Assembly (NCBI GenBank): GCA_017937655.1
Contig: JAGBDE010000001.1
Coordinates: forward strand, 1 to 64,000
Direction: 5' to 3'
DNA length: 64,000 nucleotides
From: Clostridia bacterium
Lineage (GTDB): Bacteria > Bacillota > Clostridia > Christensenellales > Aristaeellaceae
Shown: one piece after another, positions 17,305 through 55,759 of the stretch
Position numbering within the stretch: position 1 is the first letter of the stretch
Layout of the letters: each line of letters starts with the position of its first letter
Position numbers and translations under genes: made by a program
Notes under the pieces: model-generated
The model's database searches: none
What the model was told of the DNA's origin: nothing
What the model saw: only the letters and a program-made list of their open reading frames with translations

Positions 17305-18135
17305 ATGAAAAAACGCGGTGTAAGTATTGTACTGGTTCTCATTCTCCTTGTAGGTGCTGGGTTGATGCTGTATCCGGTGGTGTCAAACTATCTCAACCAG
17401 CGTAGCCAGAGCAAGGCGATTGAAAGCTATAATCAGACTGCGGCCACGGCAAATGTCGCCTTTTACGAAGAAACCCTGGCCGATGCTCAGGCCTTTAACC
17501 ACATGCTTTTTGAGCGCGGTGCCATTTCCCTTTTGCAGGGTGAGGATATGGAAAAATACATGTCCCTCATGAACCTGCGCGACGATGGCGTCATCGGCTA
17601 TGTGCACATTCCCAAGATTAAGGTGAATCTGACCATCGGCCATACCGTGGAGGAAGAAGTGCTTCGCAAAAAAGCCGGTCATATGCCCGGCAGTTCTTTC
17701 CCCATTGCGGGCGAGAACGTTCACGCTGTTCTATCGGCCCACAGAGGCCTGCCTTCCGCTTCCCTGTTCAGCAATCTGGATCAGCTGGAAGTGGGGGATA
17801 CCTTCCAGATTCACGTTCTTGACCGGATCTATGATTATCAGGTGCGGGAGATCAACGTGATTCTTCCCGAGGAAACGGAGTATCTCAACATCGTCCCTGG
17901 GAAAAATTATGTGACCCTGATGACCTGCACGCCCTACGGCGTCAACACCCACCGGATGCTGGTCAGGGGCGAGTTCGTTTCTGAGTCCCGCATCGGTGAT
18001 CAACAGCCCGAGACGGAAAATAGTCTGCTGTTCTTCCTTGAAGAACACAAGCATCTTCTGCTTCCCATTGCAGCTGGCGTGCTGCTGTTCCTGTTCCTCA
18101 TTCTGCTTCTGCCTAAGCGCAGCGGCAAAAAGTAA
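17305..18135 (+). CDS. srtC: Class C (pilus-type) sortase
   Basis: This transpeptidase has about 276 residues, with one membrane helix at each end, the class C arrangement. The catalytic triad is visible: His146 in SAHRGLPSA, Cys208 in [14 protein letters not shown], and Arg217. The motif TLxTCTPYGxNTHR is typical of pilin-polymerising sortases. The usual N-terminal lid motif (Asp-Pro-Trp/Phe) was not found; the corresponding stretch reads [18 protein letters not shown] at 17299 is in frame, but GGGG at 17294-17297 is better spaced for the ATG at 17305. It precedes the VPQTG protein that is its likely substrate. Confidence 0.88.
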
Positions 18136-18154
18136 AAAGATGGGTGATGAAGTG

Positions 18155-19459
18155 ATGAAGCGGTCGTTCGCGTTCCTCCTGGCAACTCTCGTATTGCTGA
18201 TGGCGCTGCCCGTAACCTCTATGGCCAGCGGCAAAAAAGACGGTAAGCTGACTGTGAATTTCAGCTTTACCGCAGACGGAAAGGATGTGCCGATCTCTGG
18301 CGCAACCTTCTCCCTGTATACCATTGCCGAAGGTACTCTGACTGGTCAGGGCATTATGTTCAAGACTGATTCGGAGTATACTTCTTATACTGGTCAAAAA
18401 CATTTCAACGAAATGAAAGAAAGCGAATTCCACGCTTTGACCGAAAAGGTTGAAAAACATGTCATGCTCAAGCATATTGAGCCTGATTATGTTGCCTCTA
18501 CGGGTGATAAGGGTCAGTTTGTTCTTGAGATTCCTTATGGAATTTATCTTGTGCGTCAAACTGCGTCCAATGGACAGGCCGCCAATTTCCATAGCGCACC
18601 GTCCTTCCTTGCGATCGTTCCCGCATTTGACCCCAAAACTGGTGAGTTGATTGATTCCGTTGCAGAACCCAAAGCAGAACCTACCCCTGCTCCTACTGCA
18701 ACGCCTACACCCACTCCCACTCCTACGGCAACACCTACCTCTTCACCTACTCCTACCCCTTATGTTCCCCGTGATGGTGGTACTCCCACTCCCACAGGTA
18801 CTGTATTTGAGTCCACGCCTACTCCGCAAGTGACTCCTACGTCTACGCCTATTGTTACGCCCACTCCTCAGCCGGAGGAAGAGAAGATCGATTTGTTAGT
18901 TCGTAAGGACTGGGCCGACTATAGCAACGCAGATCAGGTGCGACCGACGGAGATCCGCCTGTATCTGTATCGTAAGGCCACTACAGCTGCTACGTATCCC
19001 GATACTCCCTTTATAACCGTTGATCTTAGTGGTGTGACAGATCAGTGGTCCTTCACCTTCTTCGGCTTGGTGGAAAAAGATGTGAATGGCATTCGCTATG
19101 ACTACATCGTTCGTGAGGAAGAAGTACCCGGATATTCTCCCATCTATGAGGATACCAACGCCTATAAGCGTGTCATTACCAATGTTCACGCTACCAATAC
19201 TCCTGCACCCGGTTCCACTCCCACTCCCATGCCTGTTGAGACTGTTCCGCCTACCAATCCTCCTGGAATGCCCGTTGGTGTAATGGAAATTGACGGTGAA
19301 TGGTACTATATCGACGAGTATGGCGTTCCTCTGGGTCTTGTTCCCCAGACCGGTGACGAAACTCAGTTGATCCTCTATGCTGGATCTGCTTTGCTGTTCA
19401 TCGCCGCAGCAGTTTACCTGTTCATGATGCTGTATCGTCGCCGTAAGCAAGAGGCCTGA
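18155..19459 (+). CDS. VPQTG-anchored, Thr/Pro-rich surface protein (pilin-like)
   Basis: The start at 18155 gives 434 residues. A signal peptide ([20 protein letters not shown], then SMAS) is followed by a domain with the pattern [25 protein letters not shown]. That pattern resembles the transthyretin-like pilin (SpaA/Cna_B) fold. A long Thr-Pro linker with TPTPTP repeats comes next, then a second beta-rich domain (about residues 250-345) and a second short Thr-Pro linker. The C-terminus has LVPQTGD (motif residues 396-400), a membrane helix and RRRKQEA, a complete sortase sorting signal of the variant VPxTG type. It is probably polymerised or anchored by the flanking sortases. Third codon positions contain more T and A than in the neighbours. 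Confidence 0.82.
18655..18870 (+). repeat. Thr-Pro codon repeat in the surface protein
   Basis: This stretch is built from imperfect repeats of Thr-Pro codons (ACNCCN). It encodes an extended linker that may be O-glycosylated and may vary in length between strains. A similar Thr-Pro tract occurs in the downstream sortase fusion (about 19770-19885). Confidence 0.7.
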
Positions 19460-48091: not shown

Positions 48092-49819
48092 ATGCTACTG
48101 TCGATGACGGTGCGCAACATTGCGCTCATCGAAAGCCTGACCATAGAATTTCATAAAGGAATGACGGTTCTCAGCGGCGAGACCGGCGCAGGTAAGTCCA
48201 TCATTGTGGACAGCATCAACCTGGTGCTGGGCGAGCGGGCCGACCGGGGGCTGATCCGCTCCGGATGCGAGAAAGCCTCTGTGGAAGCGCTGATCGATAT
48301 TTCCGATTGCCCCAAGGCCAAGGCTGTTCTGGAAAGCCAGCAGCTGTCCGACGACGGCGGCGTAATTTCCATTCAGCGCGAGATTACCACCACGGACCGA
48401 AACGTGTGCCGTGTCTGCGGGGTCATTGTGCCGCTGACGTTCCTCAGGACGCTGTCTGCGCTGCTGGTGGACGTTCACGGGCAGCATCAGCACCAGAGCC
48501 TGCTGGACAGCAAAATGCACATGGGCTTTCTGGATTCTTTTGGCGACGCCACGTTCCTGGACAAAAAGGAAGAAGTGGCCACTGCTTACTGTGTCTGGAA
48601 GGAAAGCAGCGCCAAGTTCTCCGCCCTGCGCAAGGAAAACGCCCAGCGGGAGGAGCGGCAGGAGTACCTGTCCACCCGCGTCAAGGAACTGGACGCCGTG
48701 CAGCTGACCATGGGCGAGGCTGACAAGATCGCAGCAGAGAGGGACTATTTCCAGAGCGCGGAGAAGATCGACAACGCCATGCGCACCGCTTACGGCGAGG
48801 TCTATGGCGGAGGACGGGAACAAAGCGCGGCCATCAAGCTCAAGGAAGCGGCCAGCGCCATGCAGTCCATCGGCCACCTGGACGAGAAATTCCAGGCCCT
48901 GGGCGCAAGGCTGATGACCGCCCATTATGAGATTGAGGAAATCGGCATTGAGCTGCGGGATCTGCTGGAACAGCAGAATTTTGATCCGGAGCGTTTGGAA
49001 CAGATGTCCGAGCGGCTGGATACCATCCGCCGGCTGGAACGCCGCTACGGCATGACGGCCGACGAACTGGTCAGCCATCATGAGGAGATCAAGGACGAAC
49101 TCAGCCGCCTGGGCAACATGGAAGAGCGGCTGCAGCGGGCCGAGATGGACTACAAGCGCAAGCTGGCGGAATACCGAGCCGCGGCTGCAGAACTGACCGA
49201 GATGCGCAAGAACCTGGCCACCTGGTTCGAGGGGGTCATGGAAAAGGAACTCAGCGACCTGGGCATGCAGAACACCCGTTTTGCCTGCGTGTTTGAGGCG
49301 CTTGAACCCGGCCAGAAGAAGGTTCCTACCGCCGAGGGTGACGACCATATTGCCTTCTATATCGCCCCCAACCCGGGCGAGCCGCTCAAGCCCCTGGACA
49401 AGACCGCTTCCGGTGGCGAACTGAGCCGCCTGATGCTGGCCCTGAAAGCCGCAGGCGCCGCCCACGAAGGCATCCCGGTGATGATCTTTGACGAGATTGA
49501 CACCGGCATCAGCGGGCACATTGCCCAGGTGGTGGCGGAGAAGATGGCGTCCATCGCCGGATTCCATCAGGTGCTGTGCGTTACCCATCTGGCCCAGATT
49601 GCCGCCATGGCGGACTACCAGTACCTGGTGGCCAAAAAGGTGGTAGGGGAGAGGACCTTCACCAACGTCACCCAGCTGGACAAACAAGGCCGCATCGACG
49701 AGGTGGCAAGGCTCATCGGCGTTAGCAGCGACCAGCAGGAAAGCGGTATCGCCCATGCAAGGGCCATCCTCAACGCGGGCGTCATGTGGAAAAACCAAAA
49801 CAGGGTGCAAAATCCTTAA
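48092..49819 (+). CDS. recN: DNA repair protein RecN
   Basis: This SMC-like ATPase has 575 residues. The Walker A motif is GETGAGKSIIVDSI, DVHGQHQHQSLL follows, then a long coiled-coil middle (about residues 160-390). The signature is TASGGELSRLMLALK, Walker B is VMIFDEIDTGISG, and VTHLAQIAAMAD is present. It acts early in double-strand-break repair with RecA. The family is commonly SOS-controlled, but no LexA box was found in the 20 bases before it, and it is probably transcribed from the nadK promoter. Confidence 0.96.
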   Translation: MLLSMTVRNIALIESLTIEFHKGMTVLSGETGAGKSIIVDSINLVLGERADRGLIRSGCEKASVEALIDISDCPKAKAVLESQQLSDDGGVISIQREITTTDRNVCRVCGVIVPLTFLRTLSALLVDVHGQHQHQSLLDSKMHMGFLDSFGDATFLDKKEEVATAYCVWKESSAKFSALRKENAQREERQEYLSTRVKELDAVQLTMGEADKIAAERDYFQSAEKIDNAMRTAYGEVYGGGREQSAAIKLKEAASAMQSIGHLDEKFQALGARLMTAHYEIEEIGIELRDLLEQQNFDPERLEQMSERLDTIRRLERRYGMTADELVSHHEEIKDELSRLGNMEERLQRAEMDYKRKLAEYRAAAAELTEMRKNLATWFEGVMEKELSDLGMQNTRFACVFEALEPGQKKVPTAEGDDHIAFYIAPNPGEPLKPLDKTASGGELSRLMLALKAAGAAHEGIPVMIFDEIDTGISGHIAQVVAEKMASIAGFHQVLCVTHLAQIAAMADYQYLVAKKVVGERTFTNVTQLDKQGRIDEVARLIGVSSDQQESGIAHARAILNAGVMWKNQNRVQNP

Positions 49820-49840
49820 TTGTTAAAGAAGAAATTACCC

Positions 49841-49869
49841 TTTCCACCGCATAAGGTTTATGCTATACT
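49841..49869 (+). promoter_or_regulatory. Candidate promoter of the rnf operon
   Basis: TTTCCA (49841-49846) and TATACT (49864-49869) are 17 bases apart, 46 bases before rnfC. Confidence 0.55.
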
Positions 49870-49914
49870 CTCAATGGATGCATATGTGAATTCATACAGG
49901 AAGGACGATATATC

Positions 49915-51261
49915 ATGAGCATCATTCACCGTTTTCCCGGTGGAATTCATCCCCACGAGGGAAAGGGCGGCAAGGCCGCAACTGCCGGTCTTCCCATTGT
50001 GGAAGCCCCGCTGCCTTCCCGCGTAACCATTCCGCTGCAGCAGCACATCGGCGCTCCCTGCAAGCCTCTGGTTCAGAAGGGCGACTATGTGAAGGTTGGC
50101 CAGATGATCGGCGAGCCTGTGGGCTTTGTGAGCGCGGCTGTTCACGCCTCCGTTTCCGGCACTGTGGTGGATGTTATGCCCTGCATCGTGGCCAATGGAA
50201 CCCAGGTCAACGCTGTGGTCATCGATAACGACCATACCGACACCTGGGAAGACCTGACCCCTGTGCAGAACCCCGAAGCCATCACCGCCCAGGAACTGTC
50301 TGAGCTTTGCCGCAAACTGGGCATTGTGGGTATGGGCGGCGCAACCTTTCCCACTTCTGTGAAGCTGGCTGTGCCCGCTGACAAGAAGGTGGACACCCTG
50401 CTCATCAATGGTGCAGAATGCGAGCCTTACCTTTCTGCCGACCATCGGCTGATGGCGGAGAAGGCTGAGGGCATAGTGTGCGGCGTCCGCCTGGTGAAGA
50501 AGGCCCTGAATATTCCTACGGTCAAGATCGGCGTGGAGCTGAACAAGCCTGACGCCATCGACGCCCTGAAAGCCTGCATCAAGGCAGATGATGGCATCGA
50601 AGTGATCGGCCTGAAGGTCAATTACCCCCAGGGCGGCGAAAAGCAGCTGACTTACGCCCTCACCGGCCGGAAGGTCCGCACCGGCGGCCTGCCCCTGGAT
50701 ATTGGCGTAATCGTGATGAACGTGGGCACCTGCTATGCCATCTATCGCGCCGTGTACGAGGGACGGCCCGTTATCGACCGGGTGGTGACCGTGGGCGGCA
50801 CCGTTGCCAAGCCCGCCAACTATCTGGCCCGCATCGGCTCTCCTGTGGAATGGCTGCTGGATACCTCCGAGGGCATGCTGCCTGAGACCCGCATGCTGAT
50901 CTACGGCGGCCCCATGATGGGCATGGCCATCAGCCGTCATGACATTCCCGTCACCAAGGGATGCAGCGGCGTGCTGGCCCTCGACAAGCTGGCTGCCCTG
51001 GCGGAGGAAGGCGCTTGCATCCGCTGCGGACGCTGCGTGGAAGCCTGCCCGATGCTGCTGTCTCCCACCATGCTGGACAAGTACATGCGCAAGGGCATGT
51101 ACGAGGAAGCTGAACAGGCTGGCGCGCTGAACTGCATGGAATGCGGCGCCTGCACCTGGAGCTGCCCTGCCCGCCGCAACCTGACCCAGAGCTGCCGCGT
51201 ACTCAAGAAAGTGATTACGCAGCGCAAGAAAGAAGAAGCCGCACTGAAAGGAGGTAAGTAA
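49915..51261 (+). CDS. rnfC: Rnf complex subunit RnfC
   Basis: This protein of 448 residues is peripheral and cytoplasmic, the NADH-binding subunit. It has HRFPGGIHPHEGKG at the start, NADH/FMN-site loops GIVGMGGATFPTSVKL and INGAECEPYLSADHRLM, and two [4Fe-4S] motifs, CIRCGRCVEACP and CMECGACTWSCP. It passes electrons between ferredoxin, via RnfB, and NAD. First gene of rnfCDEAB; rnfD starts 2 bases after its stop. Confidence 0.96.
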   Translation: MSIIHRFPGGIHPHEGKGGKAATAGLPIVEAPLPSRVTIPLQQHIGAPCKPLVQKGDYVKVGQMIGEPVGFVSAAVHASVSGTVVDVMPCIVANGTQVNAVVIDNDHTDTWEDLTPVQNPEAITAQELSELCRKLGIVGMGGATFPTSVKLAVPADKKVDTLLINGAECEPYLSADHRLMAEKAEGIVCGVRLVKKALNIPTVKIGVELNKPDAIDALKACIKADDGIEVIGLKVNYPQGGEKQLTYALTGRKVRTGGLPLDIGVIVMNVGTCYAIYRAVYEGRPVIDRVVTVGGTVAKPANYLARIGSPVEWLLDTSEGMLPETRMLIYGGPMMGMAISRHDIPVTKGCSGVLALDKLAALAEEGACIRCGRCVEACPMLLSPTMLDKYMRKGMYEEAEQAGALNCMECGACTWSCPARRNLTQSCRVLKKVITQRKKEEAALKGGK

Positions 51262-51263
51262 GC

Positions 51264-52550
51264 ATGAGCCGCAAACTGGTCGTTTCGTCTTCTCCCTTTT
51301 TGCGTAATACCTCGGTCACCACCAGGGGCATTATGCTGGACGTGATCATTGCCATGCTGCCCACCGCTTTTGCAGCTGTGTGGTATTTCGGCAAAGGCGC
51401 GCTGACATTGATGCTTACTGCCGTCATCTGCTGCGTGGCCGCTGAATGGCTTTATCAGAAGCTGACCCATCAGAAGTCCACCATTTCCGATCTGAGCGCC
51501 GTGGTCACCGGCATGCTGCTTGCCTTCAACATGCCCGCCGACGCTCCCTGGTGGATGGCTGCTGTGGGTTCCGTGATCGCCATCGTGCTGGTGAAGCAGA
51601 TTTTCGGCGGTCTGGGACACAACTTTGTGAACCCTGCCCTGGCTGCCCGTACCATCCTGATGATGAGCTGGACGGTTCTCATGACCGCCCAGGTTCTGCC
51701 CGCTGCCGGTGAGTTCTTCGGACTGACCGCCGCAGCCATGGATGCCACTTCCGCTGCCACTCAGGCTGTTGCGACCGCCGCTCCCGCCATCGACGCTGTG
51801 GCCTCTGCTACCGTGCAGGCTGTGTCCAGCGCCTCCGGTGCCGTGGACGCTGTGGCTGCTGCCACTCAGGCTGTTGCGACCGCCGCTCCCGCCATCGACG
51901 CTGTGGCCTCTGCTACTGTGCAGGCTGTGTCCAGCGCCTCCGGTGCAGTCGACGCTGTGGCTTCTGCTACTGTGCAGGCTGTGTCCAGCGCTTCCACCTC
52001 TGTGGACGCTGTGGCTTCCGCTACTGTGGACGCCGTGTCCGTCGCTACGCCTCTTGCTCCCAACGCCTCCGGCTACACCCTCTGGCAGCTGTTCAGCGGC
52101 AATATCCCCGGTATGCTGGGGGAAACCTGCAAGCTGACTTTGCTCCTTGGCGGTATCTACCTGATCATCCGCCGGGTGATTGACTGGCGCATTCCCGTTT
52201 CCTTTATCGGTACTGCCTTCCTGCTGTTCCTGGCTAAGTACGGCGTGGTTTACAGCGTGGAAAGCGGCGCCAACAACGCCCTCTACCAGCTGCTCAGCGG
52301 CGGCCTCATTCTGGGCGCGTTCTTCATGGCCACTGACTACGTTACCTCTCCCATTACCAAATGGGGCCGTGTGATCATGGGCGTTGGCTGCGCGCTGATT
52401 CTGTTCCTGATCCGTAACGCCGGAACGTACCCGGAAGGCTGCTCTTTCGCCATTCTGTTCATGAACGTGCTGACCCCCATGATCGACAAATTCACCACCC
52501 GGAAGCCCTTCGGAACCGTGAAGCCTGCGAAGGGAGGTGCTCAGGCATGA
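51264..52550 (+). CDS. rnfD: Rnf complex subunit RnfD with a tandem-repeat insertion
   Basis: This membrane subunit has 428 residues, about 100 more than usual. The framework is normal: TTRGIMLDVIIAMLPTAFAA, LGHNFVNPALAARTILMMSW, NIPGMLGETCKLTLLLGGIY and SGGLILGAFFMATDYVTSP. In other RnfD proteins a D-G/A-x-S-G-A-T-P-L segment carries covalent FMN on Thr. Here that place is DAVSVATPL (Thr262). Before it lies an Ala/Val/Ser-rich insertion (about residues 159-255) made of 17- and 18-residue units containing D-A-V-A-S-A-T. The first unit, DATSAAT (160-166), fits the published flavin-transferase target pattern; the middle ones have Ala at the Ser/Thr position. Overlaps rnfE by four bases, with no rnfG between. 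Confidence 0.92.
   Translation: MSRKLVVSSSPFLRNTSVTTRGIMLDVIIAMLPTAFAAVWYFGKGALTLMLTAVICCVAAEWLYQKLTHQKSTISDLSAVVTGMLLAFNMPADAPWWMAAVGSVIAIVLVKQIFGGLGHNFVNPALAARTILMMSWTVLMTAQVLPAAGEFFGLTAAAMDATSAATQAVATAAPAIDAVASATVQAVSSASGAVDAVAAATQAVATAAPAIDAVASATVQAVSSASGAVDAVASATVQAVSSASTSVDAVASATVDAVSVATPLAPNASGYTLWQLFSGNIPGMLGETCKLTLLLGGIYLIIRRVIDWRIPVSFIGTAFLLFLAKYGVVYSVESGANNALYQLLSGGLILGAFFMATDYVTSPITKWGRVIMGVGCALILFLIRNAGTYPEGCSFAILFMNVLTPMIDKFTTRKPFGTVKPAKGGAQA
51741..52055 (+). repeat. In-frame tandem repeats in rnfD encoding DAVxxAT units
   Basis: A 105-bp unit starting GCCACTCAGG at 51756 recurs almost identically at 51861. It is followed by two further 54-bp partial copies (about 51944 and 51998). 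All copies keep frame and encode alternating 17- and 18-residue modules with the heptad D-A-V/T-x-x-A-T. The near identity of the first two copies points to recent duplication. Confidence 0.85.
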
Positions 52551-53188
52551 GCAAGAAGTCCCTCGGAAAGATTTTTATGAACGGCATCATTGACGAGAAC
52601 CCCACCTTCCGTCTGCTGCTGGGCATGTGTCCCACGCTGGCCATCTCCACCGCCGCCACCAACGGTCTGGGCATGGGTCTGGCTGCCACCTTCGTTCTGG
52701 TTTTCTCCAACCTGGTGATTTCCCTTTTGCGCAAGGTGATCCCCGAAAAGGTTCGCATTCCCAGCTTCGTGGTGGTCATCGCGTCCTTCGTGACTATGAT
52801 CGACCTGCTGCTCAAGGCATTCATCCCGTCCCTGTCTGAATCCCTGGGTATGTACATCCCGCTGATCGTGGTGAACTGCATTATCTTCGCCCGCGCGGAA
52901 TCCTTTGCCTTCAAGAATGGCCCCATCGAATCCATCTTCGACGGTCTGGGCATGGGCCTGGGCTTCACCATCGCGCTGACCATCCTGTCCGCCATCCGTG
53001 AATGCATCGGCGCAGGAACCATCTTCGGCATGCAGGTCATGCCCGCAAACTATCAGCCCATGGCCTTCGCGGTCATGCCCTCCGGCGGATTCATCTTCCT
53101 GGGCGTGCTGCTGCTGATTGTCAACGGCCTGATGTCTTACGTTGAAAAGCGCAAGAAAGAAAAGGAAGAGGAGGAGATGATGTTATGA
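52547..53188 (+). CDS. rnfE: Rnf complex subunit RnfE
   Basis: This integral membrane protein has 213 residues and six helices. [20 protein letters not shown] is the family hallmark; the LGMCP-type Cys is a ligand candidate for the membrane [2Fe-2S] cluster shared with RnfA. Also seen are [18 protein letters not shown] and a charged C-terminal tail. It overlaps both rnfD and rnfA by four bases. Confidence 0.95.
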
Positions 53189-53763
53189 TCGATATCATGA
53201 AAATCGTCATTGGCGGCGTTCTGGTCAACAACTTCATCATGTCCAAGTTCCTGGGCATCTGCCCCTTCCTGGGGGTGTCCAAGAAGAGCGGAACCGCTTT
53301 CGGCATGGGCATGGCTGTTACCTTCGTTATGACCATCGCTTCCTTCTTCACCTGGCTGATTGAGCACTACATCCTCATTCCGCTCGGCCTGAATGCGTTC
53401 ATGCAAACCATCGCGTTCATTCTGGTCATTGCCTCTCTGGTACAGATCGTTGAACTGGTGCTGAAAAAGCTGAGCCGCTCCCTGTACCAGGCGCTGGGCG
53501 TGTACCTGCCTCTGATCACCACCAACTGTGCCGTGCTGGGCGTCGCCCTGCTGAATTCCACTGAGGGCTATACTCTGGTGCAGTCCGTTGTTAATGGCTT
53601 TGGTTCTGCCATCGGCTTTACGCTGGCTATCGTCCTGTTTGCCTTCATCCGCGAGCGTCTTGCCACCAGCAATATGCCCAAATGGATGGAAGGTTTCCCC
53701 GGCGCACTGATCGCCGCTGGCCTGATGTCTCTGGCTTTCCAGGGCTTCTCCGGCCTGATTTAA
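53185..53763 (+). CDS. rnfA: Rnf complex subunit RnfA
   Basis: This integral membrane protein has 192 residues and six helices and is homologous to RnfE with inverted topology. Characteristic stretches are [20 protein letters not shown], with the cluster-ligand Cys region, and [15 protein letters not shown]. Start overlaps the rnfE stop (ATGA). Confidence 0.96.
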
Positions 53764-53782
53764 CAGAAAGGAGCAAGCACAG

Positions 53783-54835
53783 ATGCAAACAATTCTTTAT
53801 GCCACGCTCATTCTGGGCGGTCTCGGCCTTCTGTTCGGCCTGCTTCTGACCCTTGCCAACAAGGTGTTCCATGTTCCCAGCAACCCCAAGCGTGACGCCA
53901 TTCGTAACTGCCTGCCCGGCGCCAACTGCGGCGGCTGCGGCTTTGCCGGCTGCGACGCCCTGGCCGACGCCATCGTGGAGGAGAAAGCTCCCCTCAGCGC
54001 ATGCCCTGTGGGCGGCGCAGATGTTGCCAACCAGATCGCTGAAATCATGGGCGTGGAAGCCTTGCCTGACCAGGTGCGCAATGTTGCCACCGTGGTTTGC
54101 CAGGGTACTTTGGACCGCTGCAAGAACAAGTTTGTGTACCACGGCATTCAGGACTGCGTGGCCGCCTCTCTGGTTAACGACGGCAACCGCAGCTGCAAGT
54201 ATGCCTGCCTGGGCCTTGGCACCTGCGTGAAGGCCTGCAAATTCGGCGCTATCACCATTGACGAGCACAGCAAGATCGCCAAAGTGGATCCTGACAAGTG
54301 CCAAAGCTGTGGCGCTTGCGTGAAGGCCTGTCCCAAGGGCGTGCTGAGCCTGCAGCCCGAGACTGTTCCTGTCCGCCTGCTGTGCCGTGCCGCCGAAGAA
54401 GGCTTCCTGGTCAGCGATAACTGCAAGATCGGCTGCATTGGCTGCGAGCTGTGCGCTAGCGCCTGCAAGTTCGGCGCCATCACCATCGTCAACCACCTGC
54501 CTGTCATCGACATGAACAAGTGCGTGGGCTGCATGATGTGCGCTGAAACCTGCCCCAACGGTTCTCTCTGGGGCGATTTTGACAACCGGAAGATCGCTGA
54601 GATCGACCGTGATCTGTGCATTGGCTGCACCATCTGCAAGAAGACCTGCAAGTTTGAAGCCATTTCCGGTGAACTCAAGCAGATCCACGAGGTCAACGAG
54701 GCCTGCACCGGCTGCGGCGAATGCGCCAAGAAGTGCCCCAAGAAGGCCATTACGCTTTCCGTGCGCAAGCATGTCCGCGATGCAAACGCCAAGGTTGGTA
54801 CCACCATTGTGGATGCTGCGGTTCCCAAGAACTAA
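53783..54835 (+). CDS. rnfB: Rnf complex subunit RnfB, multi-cluster form
   Basis: This protein of 350 residues has an N-terminal membrane helix (residues 3-25) and a four-Cys domain NCLPGANCGGCGFAGC (C43, C49, C52, C57) plus C74. A long ferredoxin-like array follows: CKYACLGLGTCVKAC, CQSCGACVKACP, CKIGCIGCELCASAC, CVGCMMCAETCP, CIGCTICKKTC and CTGCGECAKKCP. That suggests up to seven clusters, as in the long acetogen-type RnfB. It accepts electrons from reduced ferredoxin. Last gene of the operon, 19 bases after rnfA. Confidence 0.95.
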   Translation: MQTILYATLILGGLGLLFGLLLTLANKVFHVPSNPKRDAIRNCLPGANCGGCGFAGCDALADAIVEEKAPLSACPVGGADVANQIAEIMGVEALPDQVRNVATVVCQGTLDRCKNKFVYHGIQDCVAASLVNDGNRSCKYACLGLGTCVKACKFGAITIDEHSKIAKVDPDKCQSCGACVKACPKGVLSLQPETVPVRLLCRAAEEGFLVSDNCKIGCIGCELCASACKFGAITIVNHLPVIDMNKCVGCMMCAETCPNGSLWGDFDNRKIAEIDRDLCIGCTICKKTCKFEAISGELKQIHEVNEACTGCGECAKKCPKKAITLSVRKHVRDANAKVGTTIVDAAVPKN

Positions 54836-54849
54836 CGCCTGACCGGCTG

Positions 54850-54894
54850 AAGGATGGTCACGGGGCCAAAAGCCGCGGATCATCCTTCTTTTTT
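54850..54894 (+). terminator. Intrinsic terminator of the rnf operon
   Basis: AAGGATG (54850-54856) pairs with CATCCTT (54881-54887), with an inner imperfect G+C-rich stem, followed by CTTTTTT. Confidence 0.85.
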
Positions 54895-54925
54895 ATGAAT
54901 TTGAAAAGATGGGGGAGAGGCCTCT

Positions 54926-55759
54926 ATGAAATTGGGTATTATCGGCGCGGGCAATATGGGCGGAACCATATTGAAGACCGCCATCAACAGCAGCTATGTC
55001 AATGCCTACGAAACCAATGTGTACGATATCAGCCAGGAGCAGATCCAGAAGCTGACCGACATGTATCCCATCCGGGTGATGGAAAGCGCGGCGCGGCTGG
55101 TGATCGAAAGCGAATGCATTTTGCTGGCGGTGAAGCCGCAATTCATGAAGGGCGTTCTGGACGAGATCCAGCGCCATGCCAAGAACAAGCGGTTTATTTC
55201 CATTGCGGCGGGCTGGACCCAGGCCATGCTGGCGGAAGGGCTTAACGCCAAGGATTCCAACCCGCAGATCCTTCGTGTCATGCCCAACACCCCTGCGCTG
55301 GTTGGCGCGGGCTACACCGCTTTCTGCGAGGAAACTACCTTCAACAGCCTTTCTCTGAACTGGGCCAAGGGATTATTCTCTTGCCTGGGCACGGTGCAGA
55401 CGGTGCCTGAAAAGCTGTTTGATGCGGTGGTTGCCGTGTCCGGCAGCAGCCCTGCCTATGTGTATATGTTCATCGAGGCCATGGCCGACAGCGCCGTGAA
55501 GCTGGGCATGCCCCGGAAGATGGCCCTGCAGGCCGCAGCCCAGGCCGTGTTCGGCTCTGCCAAGATGGTGCTGGAGTCCACCGACCATGTGGCCAAGCTG
55601 AAGGACGACGTGTGCTCTCCCGGCGGAACCACCATCGAGGCGGTGCAAGTGCTGGAGGAGAACGGCTTCCGCGGCACCGTGATGAAGGCTATGGAAGCCT
55701 GCGCCAAGAAAAACCACGCCATGGGCCTAAAGTATGAACGGAGACAGACTGAAAAATGA
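54926..55759 (+). CDS. proC: Pyrroline-5-carboxylate reductase
   Basis: This 277-residue protein has an N-terminal Rossmann motif (LGIIGAGNMGGTILKT), LLAVKPQFMKGVLDEI, RVMPNTPALVGAGYTAF, and the C-terminal signature with DDVCSPGGTTIEAVQVLEE. It performs the last step of proline synthesis; proA is at 32428 and proB is not in the window. GGGGGAGAGG precedes the ATG. Overlaps rnhA by four bases. Confidence 0.95.
   Translation: MKLGIIGAGNMGGTILKTAINSSYVNAYETNVYDISQEQIQKLTDMYPIRVMESAARLVIESECILLAVKPQFMKGVLDEIQRHAKNKRFISIAAGWTQAMLAEGLNAKDSNPQILRVMPNTPALVGAGYTAFCEETTFNSLSLNWAKGLFSCLGTVQTVPEKLFDAVVAVSGSSPAYVYMFIEAMADSAVKLGMPRKMALQAAAQAVFGSAKMVLESTDHVAKLKDDVCSPGGTTIEAVQVLEENGFRGTVMKAMEACAKKNHAMGLKYERRQTEK

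Follow-up and report, generated by a model that had tools for sequence, protein, structure and literature searches.

The window, by which we mean the whole 64-kb stretch of DNA that was analysed, contains an rnf operon on the forward strand (49915-54835), for which profile matches give the gene order C-D-E-A-B. The genome carrying the window is denoted G000 and the genomes compared with it are given other G-numbers. The first gene, rnfC (49915..51261; TIGR01945, 520 bits), is followed by rnfD (51264..52550), rnfE (52547..53188; TIGR01948, 248 bits), rnfA (53185..53763; TIGR01943, 264 bits) and rnfB (53783..54835; TIGR01944, 138 bits), the last coding for a polyferredoxin with five Fer4 stretches. 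rnfE adjoins rnfD with no rnfG between the two. No Rfam match was obtained for positions 49000-55500. Elsewhere in the window, an open reading frame at 17996-19459 codes for a surface-protein-like product that contains Pro/Thr tandem repeats and whose C-terminal end, VPQTG-membrane-RRRK, we take to resemble a sortase signal.

The product of rnfD has 428 residues and lies in an operon with the C, E, A and B subunits. Profiles identify it as RnfD from end to end: it matches TIGR01946 in two stretches with 312 bits against a curated cut-off of 207, and also PF03116. What sets it apart from the known RnfD/NqrB subunits is a repeat insert placed before the FMN threonine. The insert, at 51741..52028, spans residues 160-255 (96 residues, where the preliminary description had estimated about 100) in an alignment with ten relatives, nine of them repeat-free, and it is absent from the sister genome G004 and nine other members of the genus. 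Exactly seven D-x-x-x-x-A-T heptads are counted, as had been described, six of them extra and one native. The extra heptads, all on the forward strand, are DATSAAT at 51741..51761 (ending in T166), DAVASAT at 51792..51812 (T183), DAVAAAT at 51846..51866 (T201), and DAVASAT again at 51897..51917 (T218), 51951..51971 (T236) and 52005..52025 (T254).

The native heptad, DAVSVAT followed by PL (residues 256-262, 52029..52049), ends in T262, which lies in a D-x4-A-T-P-L context as the FMN-attachment threonine does. The counterparts of T262 in alignment are T153 in 7zc6_D and T156 in 9eri_D; 9eri is presumably the Acetobacterium woodii entry, with which the residue numbering agrees. The aligned sites in both chains read D-x-V-T-T-A-T, without a glycine. 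In the Clostridium tetanomorphum complex (PDB 7ZC6) RnfD Thr153 is reported to bind FMN covalently (PMC9588780), as is T156 in the A. woodii complex (PMC11889175). The alignment to these solved RnfDs bears out the earlier proposal of Thr262 as the native site and of the extracytoplasmic FMN site as the position of the block. In 11 sequences of the genus the native A-T-P-L does not vary, and in 38 sequences of the family the same is true of its A, T and L.

The block is built of tandem duplications, with periods of 105 bp (2.1 copies, 95% match) and 54 bp (4.8 copies, 75%) that agree with the 105-bp and 54-bp units described previously and with repeat spacings of 105 and 54. A third period of 24 bp (2 copies) is found at the native-site end, where heptad 6 and the native heptad form the tandem pair, so that the FMN site itself looks to have been copied to start the array. 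Within residues 155-255 all six Asp or Glu residues start a [DE]x4A[TS] heptad, and six heptads were reached in none of 5000 residue shuffles of this stretch (mean 0.61), although the shuffles ignore duplication ancestry and the six heptads are thus not six independent hits. Later divergence among the copies is for that reason the stronger evidence. An 18-residue helical period that would place the threonines on one face was also considered, but the spacings are 17, 18, 17, 18, 18 and 8 and the phases drift.

An assembly artefact, which had been raised as a possible source of the repeat, is unlikely since arrays of a similar kind recur in five further members of the genus, synonymous changes separate the copies, and two contigs of G006 end inside the array; the assemblies are drafts in which exact copy numbers may be wrong.

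Repeat-bearing RnfD within and beyond the genus

RnfD is present in 16 of the 17 genomes of the genus, and six of the 16 carry the insert. The five besides G000 have larger arrays, as a search for repeat-bearing RnfD elsewhere revealed, the insert ranging from 96 residues in G000 to about 330 in these relatives. Counted from the homologous Met, the insert-bearing proteins are 428 (G000), 480 (G010), 556 (G005), 607 (G009) and 664 (G007) residues long. The ten repeat-free RnfDs, those of G004 and G013 included, have 325-342 residues. G005, G006, G007, G009 and G010 form one lineage on the tree, referred to here as the second lineage. In G005, G007 and G009 most units have 24-25 residues, for example TTEATSAATGAAETEAAPVAAVEA, and the threonines of this lineage are spaced 24-25 residues apart, unlike those of G000.

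In a midpoint-rooted tree of RnfC, E, A and B together with RecN (G000 with a partial RecN, G003 without RnfB, G008 excluded) the nearest neighbour of G000 is G004, and G013 lies next to this pair. As both neighbours are repeat-free, the repeats were either gained twice, or gained once and lost twice. Five of the six arrays end in the pattern '[DE]xxAS[AS]T ... [DE]AxSVATPL', and this common ending leans towards a single gain.

Outside the genus, a family sample of 250 genomes (the 17 of the genus among them; 221 with RnfD) yielded no repeat-bearing RnfD among the matches listed, and neither did a class sample of 291 genomes (218 with RnfD). Genomes with weak or split matches, chosen by eye, were re-searched (24 in the family sample, nine in the class sample), and the others were judged from their genome rows or listed places alone. 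Searches with the repeat sequences themselves against eight and six genomes gave nothing else convincing, with best other E values of 0.45 and 0.098, respectively.

Fit to the flavinylation motif and constraint on the repeats

ApbE attaches flavin at the consensus D-x-x-[S/T]-G-A-[S/T], for which seven residues are reported to suffice, also in loops though to a lower degree (PMC12052999). None of the seven heptads of RnfD has the glycine, and the strict motif is therefore absent from the protein. Replacement of this glycine by alanine is reported to bring flavinylation down to about half (PMC12052999). Position 4 is neither Ser nor Thr in five of the six extra heptads of G000. The middle heptads had been thought doubtful for having Ala there in place of Ser, an objection that fails because Ala is native at position 4 in nine of the ten repeat-free RnfDs of the genus: DAVASAT is itself the native site of G001, G012, G013 and G015, and DAVAAAT that of G011. 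Among the 30 best-scoring RnfDs of other genera Ala is found at this position in six.

The first position of the motif varies between the lineages. In G000 it is Asp in the repeats, the native RnfD site and RnfG alike. In the second lineage it is Glu in the repeat heptad types listed, in the native RnfD site of all five genomes and in the ETLSGAT motif of the single-domain RnfG (four of the four found), as well as in six of eight motifs from two-domain FMN_bind proteins (G005, G007, G009 and G010). All four motifs taken from G000, G004 and G013 begin with Asp. Such co-variation is what would be expected if one enzyme were to read all of the sites. The argument is weakened by the FMN_bind domains of repeat-free relatives outside the second lineage, where EAISGAT occurs four times in G001 and once in G015. 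With DGIAGAT present in G002 and G011, FMN_bind domains of repeat-free relatives show both of the residues that depart from the textbook motif, Ala in the fourth place and Glu in the first. The motif Asp has been called strictly conserved, yet one study saw minor effects on replacing it with Ala (PMC12052999); elsewhere it is deemed essential (PMC10722498).

Divergence among the copies was examined in the second lineage and covers the full-length units of G005 (six), G007 (nine) and G009 (nine); the G006 and G010 arrays and units of less than full length do not enter the figures. For these units pN/pS is 0.069 in G005, 0.054 in G007 and 0.19 in G009. For the ten-codon core TTEATxAATG the corresponding values are 0, 0 and 0.043, and for the spacer 0.18, 0.09 and 0.28. 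Non-synonymous changes account for 2 of 15, 2 of 15 and 8 of 23 polymorphic columns, fewer than the approximately 10, 10 and 16 expected. In neutral simulations under two transition biases the core gave P ≤ 0.009 in each of the three genomes and the spacers gave P ≤ 0.021, which points to purifying selection there too; for the bare heptad of G009 the result was non-significant (P 0.07-0.08). In G000, three synonymous changes are all that separates the two 105-bp copies. Altered cores are found in some shorter units (TTESTSAATG in G007, TTEATTAATG in G005).

As the spacers are also constrained, the whole arm appears to be under selection in G005, G007 and G009, the core most of all. We read the arrays as a selected, flexible arm of RnfD that offers extra ApbE-type sites, would probably be flavinylated, wholly or in part, and belongs to an otherwise complete Rnf complex, a reading for which, from the sequences, we find the case evenly balanced.

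A serious rival, which on the whole we doubt, is an arm that is selected yet free of flavin: an Ala/Thr/Ser(/Glu/Pro)-rich flexible spacer that shields or positions the outer side of Rnf, possibly O-glycosylated or wall-spanning, with the heptads a by-product of how the array was seeded. Since the heptads were born by duplication of the site, their presence alone is no proof of use, and with the spacers under purifying selection too, what is selected may be the entire arm. The composition is also that of many flexible linkers (Ala 0.32-0.40, and rich in Thr, Val, Ser or Glu) and the length is highly variable among the relatives. A flavin-free spacer or shield would, however, leave unexplained why the core is better conserved than the spacer in three arrays and why position 1 is Asp or Glu in step with the native sites of RnfD and RnfG.

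Neutral expansion by replication slippage, tolerated in an exposed loop and too recent for the motifs to have decayed, would account for the frame-keeping units of 105, 54 and 24 bp, for the variation in copy number and for the restriction to one genus in the samples searched. It is already disfavoured, and we consider it improbable, given the many synonymous and few amino-acid differences between copies in G005, G007 and G009 and the presence of arrays in six genomes at two places on the tree.

RnfG-like proteins, FMN_bind domains and ApbE

The preliminary description had taken RnfG to be missing. By sequence it appears to be absent from the operon alone: an rnfG-like gene lies on contig C12 of G000 (L001:1249-1773). 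This gene directly precedes apbE and is itself preceded by two small genes, of which the closer one has a weak match to TIGR04518. The product of 174 residues, the sole FMN_bind protein of G000, matches TIGR01947 over positions 2-184 of 187 (E 3.7e-21) with 76 bits, below the cut-off of 102, and has an FMN_bind score above the cut-off. Its start is hydrophobic and by eye anchor-like. The motif in this protein is DGISGVT, with Val in place of the Ala of the ApbE motif. An Ala to Val change reportedly leaves about half of the flavinylation (PMC12052999).

The same arrangement of rnfG-like gene and apbE is found in G004, and single-domain RnfG-like relatives of 176-179 residues are encoded elsewhere in the genomes of G006, G007, G009 and G010. 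In G005, which is 81% complete, the form examined is a two-domain FMN_bind protein, and the genome has a third FMN_bind match. So far as sequence can tell, then, RnfG is present. The proposed tracking of the repeats with loss of rnfG also breaks down, as operonic rnfG is absent from all 16 genomes with RnfD, the ten repeat-free ones as well as the six with repeats. All six insert-bearers belong to one lineage of eight genomes, each of which has 1-5 FMN_bind matches; the remaining nine genomes, among them G008, which is without RnfD, have 9-25. That the arm substitutes for a lost RnfG, as first suggested, would fit the operon without rnfG and the smaller number of extracytosolic flavin domains that goes with the arm, but is highly improbable given the RnfG-like proteins of G000, four genomes of the second lineage and repeat-free G004, and given that repeat-free genomes lack the operonic gene as well; with RnfG-like genes present the arm fills no empty RnfG place.

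Four repeat-free genomes (G001, G002, G011 and G012) encode a giant multi-domain FMN_bind protein of 624-1050 residues near apbE, the largest with 1050 residues and eight FMN_bind stretches. In G014 and G015 such giants are cut off by contig ends, and neither giant nor arm was seen in G004 and G013. The giant of G001 (L146:3190-6342, reverse strand) has four EAISGAT motifs, and similar loci are L144, L145 and L147.

A transfer of the extra flavins from the giants to the RnfD arm would fit the FMN_bind counts, but these are one difference between two groups, and G004 and G013 show neither feature. We also put forward tentatively a bolder version of the flavin-bearing arm: RnfD would carry on a disordered arm between about six and more than 20 FMNs, each bound covalently to a bare seven-residue motif, a natural 'flavin polymer' that stores or exports electrons in a lineage without giants. 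G004, with an equally small FMN_bind set yet no arm, counts against a flavin-bearing arm in general.

Each of the six insert-bearing genomes has two ApbE genes, and the ApbE paralogue of G000 has relatives of 67-71% identity in the five others. Among the repeat-free genomes with RnfD, eight have a single ApbE that is 39-51% identical to this paralogue, G012 has two (39% and 26%), and none was found in G015. The association of paralogue with insert gives a Fisher P of 1.2e-4 with kinship ignored. As a candidate for a dedicated second flavin transferase the paralogue is weakened by relatives of 72-74% identity in G182 and G191, members of another genus; the RnfDs of these two genomes are without the insert, so the paralogue is not specific to the arm.

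The second ApbE gene of G000 lies on contig C29 beside the gene for a secreted-looking two-domain protein (L003:1441-2457 and L003:2526-3584, both on the reverse strand). This ApbE is patchy in the family, and within the genus its close relatives were found in the six insert-bearing genomes only. The neighbouring protein, which could be aligned from five of the six, has no confident Pfam match and shows DLAAGCT and DLAATVT motifs near its domain ends.

A possible role for the arm and its relation to known systems

A flavin-bearing arm would have arisen when RnfD duplicated its own FMN-attachment heptad in tandem, within an extracytoplasmic loop just before the native threonine, with selection then retaining the copies. 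The resulting arm, probably flexible and outside the membrane, would present many ApbE-target-like motifs, and ApbE would most likely load FMN on at least some of the repeat threonines to give a tethered pool of extra flavin beside the native FMN. In known Rnf complexes the FMN head of RnfG is described as swinging from the RnfA/E iron-sulphur cluster to the RnfD FMN and back (PMC12174285, PMC9588780). The arm leaves RnfD right before the FMN threonine on the outer face, and its flavins might exchange electrons with the RnfD FMN or with the moving FMN head of RnfG, which would still be used in a complex that is otherwise complete. They could then store electrons locally or branch them off to acceptors beyond the membrane. 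The flexibility, the flavinylation of the repeats and their part in electron transfer are inferred. The motifs, their place at the FMN site and their conservation in relatives favour the extra-flavin part of the arm first proposed, and the part in which it spans the place of RnfG finds no support.

Multi-flavinylated proteins, RnfG among them, are known as extracytosolic, Rnf-linked proteins with several ApbE-type sites (PMC8238504, PMC11334425, PMC10339131). The giants beside apbE in this genus are of that kind (PMC8238504), and the RnfD array has the same multiplicity. Those proteins repeat a folded FMN_bind domain, however, whereas RnfD repeats a bare seven-residue motif; the definition by more than one FMN_bind domain (PF04205; PMC8238504) does not cover it, PF03116 being its only domain. 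A natural precedent for bare motifs comes from FMN_red proteins, whose unstructured C-terminal extension bears one or two motifs and is reported to be flavinylated (PMC11334425). Like the RnfD array these are natural, bare motifs on an unstructured stretch, in their case with flavinylation demonstrated, but they end a soluble flavoprotein, while RnfD has at least six in tandem within a loop of a membrane subunit. The Flavin-tag (DxxxGA[T/S]; PMC12052999, PMC10722498) likewise places a bare seven-residue ApbE-type motif in a tail or loop; it is engineered, and the RnfD array is natural, tandem and without the motif glycine. In the accessible parts of the open-access literature on multi-flavinylated proteins and RnfG we found no RnfD with repeated flavin sites.

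The multi-flavin carriers described in these sources are mostly strings of folded domains, with bare unstructured motifs occurring one or two at once. If the arm is indeed flavinylated, an array of covalent flavins on linear motifs would be a new way of adding redox cofactors to a respiratory pump, and electron export by Rnf to acceptors beyond the membrane would become directly testable. The arrays would also provide natural data on the sequence needs of ApbE, with Ala as fourth residue, Glu as first and the glycine missing.

The NQR/RNF-like two-subunit systems (PMC8238504, PMC11334425) have an RnfD-type membrane domain in common with RnfD and differ in being described as without the RnfD flavin site (PMC11334425), and without the repeat insert. 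Other genera of the family contain RnfD-domain open reading frames of 523-664 residues (L106, L108-L115 and L119-L129). Where the matches to these proteins are split, the profile skips positions of about 140-158, the region of the flavin site, and they are probably NQR/RNF-like fusions.
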